Source: a virus. Taken from it: DNA of 49,414 bases. A program made the position numbers and the translations under genes. The stretch is from the IMG/VR virus record IMGVR_UViG_3300046167_000365, positions 1 to 49,414 of that record, one strand, 5' to 3'. The notes under the pieces are model-generated. The model was given only the letters and a program-made list of their open reading frames with translations. It made no database searches and had not been told where the DNA came from. Positions 3,117-5,708 of the stretch are shown here, in pieces (positions within the stretch are counted from its first letter, which is position 1; each line of letters opens with the position of its first letter).

Positions 3117-3236
3117 ATGAGTAAAATAAAAAACCCGTGGGATTTAGCCTACGAATTAAACAAAGATAATTATAGTAGAGCAGACATAGATGATATGTTG
3201 TTCTGTGAAGTAGAAGAATTAATAAATCAAGAATAA
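3117..3236 (+). CDS. Small acidic protein (39 aa)
   Basis: A 39-codon frame (MSKIKNPWDLAYEL... ending EELINQE) between two closely spaced genes, with one base before the next ATG. It is acidic and helical. No family recognised. Confidence 0.45.
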   Translation: MSKIKNPWDLAYELNKDNYSRADIDDMLFCEVEELINQE

Positions 3237-3237
3237 T

Positions 3238-3480
3238 ATGAGAGATGATATAAGAGTAAACGGCTGGGACTTTGAATTTGTAAGTCAAGATGATGGTAAA
3301 GATCAGTTTTACCAATGTAGAGGTGAGGTTATGTACGATGATGACCATGACGAGATGCCTGAACCAAGTCTTTGGCAAGCAGCAGAAAAGCTAGAAAAAC
3401 AACTAGAAGATCAAGGTATTAAATGCGAGGCAGGTCACTCTGAAAAAGGTTGGGTTGAAGTAACAATATACAATAAATAA
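3238..3480 (+). CDS. Small acidic hypothetical protein (80 aa)
   Basis: Strongly acidic (MYDDDHDEMPEPS in the middle), with mixed beta and helical character, ending in KGWVEVTIYNK. Acidic small phage proteins of this size are sometimes DNA mimics that block host nucleases, but nothing beyond the charge supports that here. One base separates it from each neighbour. Confidence 0.6.
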   Translation: MRDDIRVNGWDFEFVSQDDGKDQFYQCRGEVMYDDDHDEMPEPSLWQAAEKLEKQLEDQGIKCEAGHSEKGWVEVTIYNK

Positions 3481-3920: not shown

Positions 3921-4109
3921 ATGTACTGTAAATGCGGCGACGAAGTCCACCCTTATCGATTAAACTTAGGATATAAAACGTGTCCACCTTGTTCTGAAGT
4001 AAAAAAACATTCTTATGTTCCTATTACTTATCACAAAACAGGTAACACAATTCAAATAGTAAGCCAAGAGCTTAGTGCTATTATTCACAAGTCGCAACGC
4101 AGAAGATAG
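3921..4109 (+). CDS. Zinc-ribbon-like small protein (62 aa)
   Basis: Begins MYCKCGDEVHPYRLNLGYKTCPPCSEVKK: two Cys pairs, CKC and CPPC, 18 residues apart, in the pattern of a zinc ribbon. The rest is a short beta-like stretch and a basic tail (HKSQRRR). This suggests a small nucleic-acid- or protein-binding zinc protein. It is the last gene before the structured RNA block, and its end overlaps the first acceptor-like strand at 4107. Confidence 0.6.
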   Translation: MYCKCGDEVHPYRLNLGYKTCPPCSEVKKHSYVPITYHKTGNTIQIVSQELSAIIHKSQRRR

Positions 4110-4348
4110 CTAGACGAGTAGCTTAATTAGGTAAATCAAGGTCAGTAAGTTCCTGCCTCTGGAATTACACATAAGCGAATAGCTAGCAACGAGAGAGTTT
4201 TACGGTATATGGCTCTATAGAAAATACGAAAACCGATGGCGAAAGCCGGCAACTAGGTCAGGTTTAGTACTGAAGTATGTAAACGTTTTCACGAGCATAT
4301 AATGACTATGGCTACCGACGGGTATGAGGTTCGAATCCTTACTAGTTA
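4107..4348 (+). ncRNA. Structured RNA D closed by tRNA-like ends (about 242 nt)
   Basis: TAGCTAG (4107-4113) pairs over seven positions with CTAGTTA (4342-4348), with G3 opposite T70. A T-arm, TGAGG-TTCGAAT-CCTTA (4325-4341), precedes the 3' strand. GTAGC (4118-4122) pairs with GCTAC (4311-4315) just inside. Internal hairpins include GTAAgTTCC/GGAATTAC around a 7-base loop (4145-4168), GGC-GAAA-GCC (4238-4247) and GTTTAGTAC-TGAA-GTATGTAAAC. The layout recalls tmRNA or an interrupted tRNA, but no clear tag, anticodon or group I core was found. TAGCTAG is repeated at 4180. Confidence 0.4.
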
Positions 4349-4352
4349 CAAA

Positions 4353-4413
4353 TGTGCAGCGAATAAATAACGACGAGCCTTAACCAACAGGATCAAGCGA
4401 GCATGACTGCACA
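4353..4413 (+). ncRNA. Closed 7-bp stem element F (61 nt)
   Basis: TGTGCAG (4353-4359) pairs perfectly with CTGCACA (4407-4413). It is packed four bases after element D and three before element E. No T-loop consensus is present, so it is not a normal tRNA. Its interior shares an AACGAcGAGCcTTAAC word with the hairpin at 1610. Confidence 0.35.
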
Positions 4414-4416
4414 TAC

Positions 4417-4494
4417 GGGGGTGACCTGGTTTTGACGTGATAGAAAGCCTACAAGGAACTATTACGGAAGACAGTTCGATTCTGTCCACCTCCA
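4417..4494 (+). ncRNA. tmRNA-like tRNA domain lacking the mRNA part (78 nt)
   Basis: GGGGGTG (4417-4423) pairs with CACCTCC (4487-4493), including a G3-T70 wobble. The next bases, ACCTGGTTTTGAC, match the D-loop region of bacterial tmRNA as remembered, not a tRNA D-arm. GTGATAG (4437-4443) pairs with CTATTAC (4459-4465) as a P2-like helix over a 15-base loop. The T-arm is GACAG-TTCGATT-CTGTC (4470-4486), and A is the discriminator. A host tmRNA is about 350-400 nt with a tag reading frame and pseudoknots; here that part is absent. G3-U70 plus A73 is the alanine charging signal. Confidence 0.55.
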
Positions 4495-4498
4495 CTAA

Positions 4499-5616: not shown

Positions 5617-5689
5617 TGCGCGGTAGAGCAGCAGGCAGCTCGCTAGCCTCATAAGCTAGAGGTCGGAGGTTCGAGTCCTCCCTGCGCAC
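5617..5689 (+). tRNA. tRNA-Met (anticodon CAT)
   Basis: A canonical cloverleaf. Acceptor TGCGCGG with CTGCGCA (one G-T pair), TA, D-stem GAGC/GCTC, anticodon stem CTAGC/GCTAG with loop CTCATAA (anticodon at 5650-5652), variable AGGTC, T-arm GGAGG-TTCGAGT-CCTCC. CCA is not encoded in full. It could be elongator Met, or Ile2 if the C is modified to lysidine. This is the only tRNA here with all arms intact. Confidence 0.88.
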
Positions 5690-5708
5690 CTAATTTTAAA
5701 ATATAATT

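Follow-up and report, generated by a model that had tools for sequence, protein, structure and literature searches.

A transfer-messenger RNA reduced to its tRNA-like domain in a marine phage, with relatives in many other phages

Positions 4,417 to 4,494 (+ strand) of a marine phage contig of 49,414 nucleotides, the IMG/VR record IMGVR_UViG_3300046167_000365 (referred to here, over its full length, as the window), hold a 78-nt gene for a transfer-messenger RNA (tmRNA) that is confirmed to consist of a complete tRNA-like domain (TLD) without an mRNA domain. This RNA belongs to a family of phage RNAs, here called mini-tmRNAs, whose structure is backed by covariation. We consider it probable that the window RNA is a functional phage gene whose product is charged with alanine, binds SmpB and antagonizes the trans-translation of the host.

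Structure of the RNA and its conservation

The Rfam tmRNA model RF00023 matches 4417-4497(+) over model positions 1-374, with 65.9 bits against a gathering threshold of 47 and an E value of 1.5e-23 over the whole window, and the covariance model R1 gives 84.9 bits. Both halves of the TLD are present in the RF00023 alignment, with a gap of about 290 deleted model positions separating the halves of P2. The minimum free energy fold is the predicted TLD fold, at -26.6 kcal/mol (z -2.4). A preliminary description, made from the letters alone, had placed the element at 4417-4494, from G1 to A73, and had read it as a TLD with alanine identity that lacks the mRNA domain, with a 7-bp acceptor bearing G3-U70, a T-arm and A73; the model match and the fold fully support that reading. 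It had given the P2-like helix 7 bp, which must be corrected to 8 bp, as in helix 2a of ordinary tmRNA; a 3-bp hairpin caps it.

The RNA opens with the 5' strand of helix 1, the acceptor (GGGGGTG, 4417..4423), which pairs over 7 bp with CACCTCC (4487..4493) and includes G1-C72, G2-C71 and G3-U70. The discriminator A73 follows at 4494, so that both alanine identity elements, G3-U70 and A73, are present; the next letters are CTA, and CCA is not encoded here; 63 of 228 family members encode it. A 12-nt analogue of the D-loop (ACCTGGTTTTGA, 4424..4435), which by alignment to the Rfam consensus carries GG and the GA of the GA/GA motif, leads into helix 2a, whose 8 bp open with a C-G pair and are formed by CGTGATAG (4436..4443) and CTATTACG (4459..4466). 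Between these strands, in place of the tag frame, pseudoknots and helices 2b-2d, lies AAAG / CCT-ACA-AGG / AA (4444..4458), a cap hairpin of 3 bp. The linker GAA (4467..4469), whose second-position A is invariant in 100/100 family members, is followed by the T-arm, or helix 12 (GACAG-TTCGATT-CTGTC, 4470..4486). The window RNA has no resume codon, tag reading frame or pseudoknot. Nor does the 49,414-bp record hold any other tmRNA, full-length, permuted or second, above the cutoffs of RF00023 and RF04321; a full tmRNA was one of the findings that the preliminary description had named as evidence against itself.

In canonical tmRNA, helix 2a has 8 bp and is preceded by a single strand of 10-13 nt, the GA/GA motif is present, and SmpB binds near the end of helix 2a (PMC1168896). 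The 8-bp helix, the GA/GA motif and the D-loop-analogue single strand, which measures 10-14 nt across the family, match this arrangement, which places the truncation where helix 2a ends.

The covariation asked for in the preliminary description is found in related phages. In a covariance-model alignment of 101 members, standard pairs make up 97.3% of pair cells, versus 65.6% after shuffling, and 19 of the 23 pairs show changes on both sides. The covariation score is 0.773, where shuffled alignments reach 0.158 and slid structures no more than 0.105; the alignment of the members was fitted to the structure under test and is biased in its favour, and the margin is very large. Covariation supports both strands of helix 2a, the T-arm and positions 4-7 of helix 1, whereas G1-C72, G2-C71 and G3-U70 are invariant across the aligned family. 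The constancy of G3-U70 is not merely an artefact of the search, because G3 was kept in 149/150 members where the pattern fixed only U70 (L183, the one exception, reflects a register artefact), and U70 and A73 were kept in 23/23 where it fixed only G3.

Distribution of the family and its genomic setting

Because a blastn search of the window region against phage records found no match, the family was sought with sequence patterns and a covariance model. A TLD pattern with 25-55 nt between the halves matches 36 viral contigs, and further patterns extend the set to at least about 290 viral loci with 228 distinct sequences. The same short-gap pattern, run over 84,980 genomes of bacteria and archaea (257 Gb), matches only once, in a contig of a metagenome-assembled genome. 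Judged by these counts in viral versus prokaryotic sequence and by the covariation-backed structure, the window RNA is far beyond chance. Isolates with a mini-tmRNA include the Streptomyces phages LuckySocke, GiJojo, Alone3, pSt2308, BRock and Shaeky and Stenotrophomonas phage Jojan60; Streptomyces phage Tomas has a more diverged copy (50 bits). Some of these isolates grow on Streptomyces hosts of laboratory type; the host of LuckySocke is the laboratory strain S. lividans. Common annotation overlooks these genes: ARAGORN misses the RNA at 4417-4494, its sole report in the window being a tRNA-Met at 5617-5690, and the isolate records read carry no tmRNA label on the mini-tmRNA.

Some candidates were set aside. 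L041, L212, L246 and L187 either match the pattern by chance or fit poorly. The Mycobacterium phages Nibb and Validus (L129, L130) have a fragment from the 3' end of a tmRNA immediately before a tyrosine integrase gene, likely an attP site for integration in ssrA. Tunturiibacter phage Tunturi_4 (L131) has a permuted tmRNA (RF04321, 79 bits) adjoining a gene for a release factor with an RF-1 domain (ArfB-like). Other observations concern single loci. At L149, a second diverged TLD-like RNA with a G3-U70 acceptor (3208-3291, 38.8 bits) lies about 1.8 kb from the first, and at L138, L159, L167 and L182 the gene for the major head protein is directly 3' of the mini-tmRNA on the same strand. Membership in tRNA clusters is a weak trend: 25 of 100 loci, compared with 14% of random positions, have a tRNA no more than 1 kb away.

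The carrier phages were also searched for the partners of a complete tmRNA system. No SmpB gene was found in 50 phage records bearing a mini-tmRNA, many of the records checked for SmpB or full tmRNA being fragments, a result that agrees with a dependence of the mini-tmRNA on SmpB from the host. No tmRNA other than the TLD exceeds the cutoff in 24/24 records, and among 50 further records a full-length tmRNA occurs only in G093, G102 and G103. G093 (L322) and G102 (L290) are very large phages (340- and 436-kb records) with a full-length tmRNA and weak or doubtful TLD-like matches, and G103 is an ordinary tmRNA.

RNase P matures the 5' end of tmRNA at G1. The TAG stop codon of an upstream reading frame ends on the first G of the mini-tmRNA (TA^G, -1) in 19 of 244 nonredundant members, some of the shorter frames in this count possibly not being genes. 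The same overlap is seen in 0/348 tRNAs in the same loci, including 0/216 that start with G, and a test by cluster gives a Fisher p of 0.0013 against G-start tRNAs. Since clustering at 75% identity merges most mini-tmRNAs, the overlap was also viewed by upstream protein; its members fall in about 8 groups of unrelated proteins, including a phosphoesterase/exonuclease and a portal protein. At L005, L007, L020, L035, L270, L289, L298 and L375 and their relatives, G1 completes or directly follows the upstream stop. Where G1 is the last base of the stop, maturation at G1 should therefore leave a nonstop upstream mRNA. The window copy has no such overlap.

The window phage encodes a portal protein, primase/helicase, ligase and ribonucleotide reductase. 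Its primase and that of Cellulophaga phage phi10:1 (Assiduviridae) share 44% identity, which makes a flavobacterial host likely. Nine further contigs of this kind also bear a mini-tmRNA, and in relatives with comparable flanking genes it lies in the early region, between an open reading frame of 62 amino acids and the ligase gene. Its position is constant in these relatives, whereas the RNA modules upstream of it are reshuffled. In the window these modules form a noncoding mosaic at 4107-4415, each closed by its own stem; the mosaic is also found in L004, L010, L015, L017, L018, L021, L024, L036 and L038, and no match to it was found in phage records or Rfam. Module A has a GCTAG..CTAGC stem with a hypervariable inner hairpin, module B an AACTAG..CTAGTT stem with a T-arm-like hairpin, and module C a TGTGCAG..CTGCACA stem, and all three are exchanged among related phages. 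A short open frame lies inside module B of L015, L036 and L024 (MAKDTISDHTIAGKLGMDVTGVIKLNRVHYY in L015 and L036).

Proposed function and alternatives

The proposed course of events begins with transcription of the window RNA in the phage early region. The transcript would mature like a tRNA, with cleavage by RNase P at G1, trimming of the 3' end and addition of CCA by a host enzyme. It would then be charged with alanine through G3-U70 and A73 and bound by host SmpB and EF-Tu. Because it has no resume codon or tag, it could not complete trans-translation, and it would compete with host tmRNA for SmpB and stalled ribosomes. As a result, rescue and proteolytic tagging would be suppressed during infection. 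There is a precedent for such an effect: PMC4131195 and PMC11915505, both citing Mao 2009, describe a TLD-only tmRNA sequence in mycobacteriophage DS6A and state that in E. coli a molecule of similar make is a strong inhibitor of tmRNA whether or not it can be charged, perhaps by titrating SmpB. The preliminary description had guessed at competition with host tmRNA and titration of SmpB, a view that is partly supported, as it agrees with this published behaviour and with dependence on the host.

Several points weigh against an antagonist of trans-translation. Expression, charging, binding of SmpB, inhibition and a benefit to the phage are steps that we infer, for the window RNA and for the family alike. 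The reported inhibition is independent of charging, yet the family strictly keeps the alanine identity pair, which pure titration of SmpB would not require; entry into the ribosomal A site or an inherited constraint could explain it. In addition, the upstream exonuclease gene of another mini-tmRNA lineage occurs without the RNA in isolate phiPsal1, and the mini-tmRNA gene is therefore dispensable or recently gained in places. The RNA was also found in 0/33 of the nearest relatives of the window phage by portal protein, an absence that is uninformative because those records also show no counterpart of the early-region ligase gene. That the family holds to the alanine pair so strictly suggests a part for entry into stalled ribosomes, and not for titration alone.

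An alternative is that the RNA rescues ribosomes without tagging. An alanyl-TLD with SmpB would enter stalled ribosomes and take over the peptide, and the complex would be resolved by drop-off, peptidyl-tRNA hydrolase or ArfB-type factors, clearing ribosomes while truncated phage proteins stay untagged. The strictly conserved alanine identity fits this alternative, as do the tag-less mitochondrial tmRNAs, which are retained alongside SmpB and are believed to assist in dealing with incomplete mRNAs (PMC11915505). However, it has no known release step, and the TLD-only behaviour in E. coli given in PMC4131195 and PMC11915505 is inhibition. We regard it as unlikely.

We give still less credence to a role mainly in cis, in which the TLD serves as a landing pad for RNase P and RNase Z that cuts phage transcripts and, at overlaps, limits upstream translation through nonstop mRNA. 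The stop-codon overlap, spread over unrelated upstream proteins and absent from the tRNAs, speaks for this alternative. Most members, including the window RNA, have no overlap, however, and the constraint on G3-U70, the D-loop analogue and GA/GA exceeds the needs of processing, for which ordinary tRNAs would serve.

It is very improbable that the window RNA is one half of a split tmRNA with its mRNA-like piece elsewhere. Two-piece tmRNAs do exist, and the structured noncoding cluster at 4107-4415 lies just upstream; the element at 4107-4352 was tried as the missing mRNA domain and dropped, being two or three separate modules that are swapped between relatives. Both acceptor strands of the window RNA are in one piece, its own hairpin closes helix 2a, the record has no further RF00023 or RF04321 match above cutoff, and relatives lack the upstream modules or have others in their place. 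A remnant of a host ssrA gene, which the preliminary description had offered as an alternative, or an attP site is scarcely credible: phages do integrate in ssrA, as the integrase-side fragments of Nibb and Validus illustrate, but here both halves are intact, the family is large and conserved with compensatory changes in its helices across many lineages, the 25 most frequent families among 111 flanking proteins include no integrase family, and the element is nearly absent from bacterial genomes.

Inhibition of host trans-translation by an alanylated, SmpB-binding decoy thus remains our preferred account of the window RNA. A wider proposal is more tentative, and we lean slightly against it: TLD-only tmRNAs may be widespread, largely unannotated phage anti-rescue RNAs that use host SmpB, and in several lineages their release by RNase P may remove the last base of the upstream stop, leaving a nonstop mRNA; the decoy and host tmRNA would then compete on the ribosomes stalled there. 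Trans-translation is nearly universal in bacteria, and the literature found notes one phage TLD-only inhibitor, that of DS6A. If the proposal is true, blocking or diverting ribosome rescue would be a common phage strategy, used by hundreds of phages with a conserved alanine pair and a need for host SmpB.

Relation to known tmRNAs

Standard bacterial tmRNA (RF00023) shares with the window RNA helix 1 with G3-U70, the D-loop analogue, the 8-bp helix 2a, the T-arm, A73 and GA/GA; helices 2b-2d, the pseudoknots, the resume codon and the tag frame are absent from the window RNA. Full-length phage tmRNAs, such as those of mycobacteriophage Kumao and Stenotrophomonas phages, are likewise phage-borne, but they keep the tag frame and could perform complete trans-translation. 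The tag frame is also absent from mitochondrial tmRNA without an mRNA-like region (jakobids and oomycetes; RF02544) and from the ~65-bp plastid tmRNA of Mallomonadaceae. These are organellar, however, and not viral antagonists; in mitochondria the gene is as a rule permuted and occurs alongside an SmpB that is targeted to the organelle.

The closest parallel is the TLD-only tmRNA of DS6A (tmRNA Website tmID 11587; Mao et al. 2009), which is reported as a phage-encoded TLD without a coding region. The likeness is by description, not alignment, and DS6A is a single mycobacteriophage, whereas the window RNA comes from a phage of flavobacterial type and is one of a far more numerous group. Of the 97,179 sequences in the 2025 tmRNA database, 9 are classed as 'standard, no CDS'. 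Text searches of the literature, which took in few subscription papers and little of bioRxiv, returned no report of a wide phage family of TLD-only tmRNAs. The TLD-only kind is thus already known from one phage, DS6A, and from organelles, and it is the breadth of the family and the overlap with upstream stop codons that look new.
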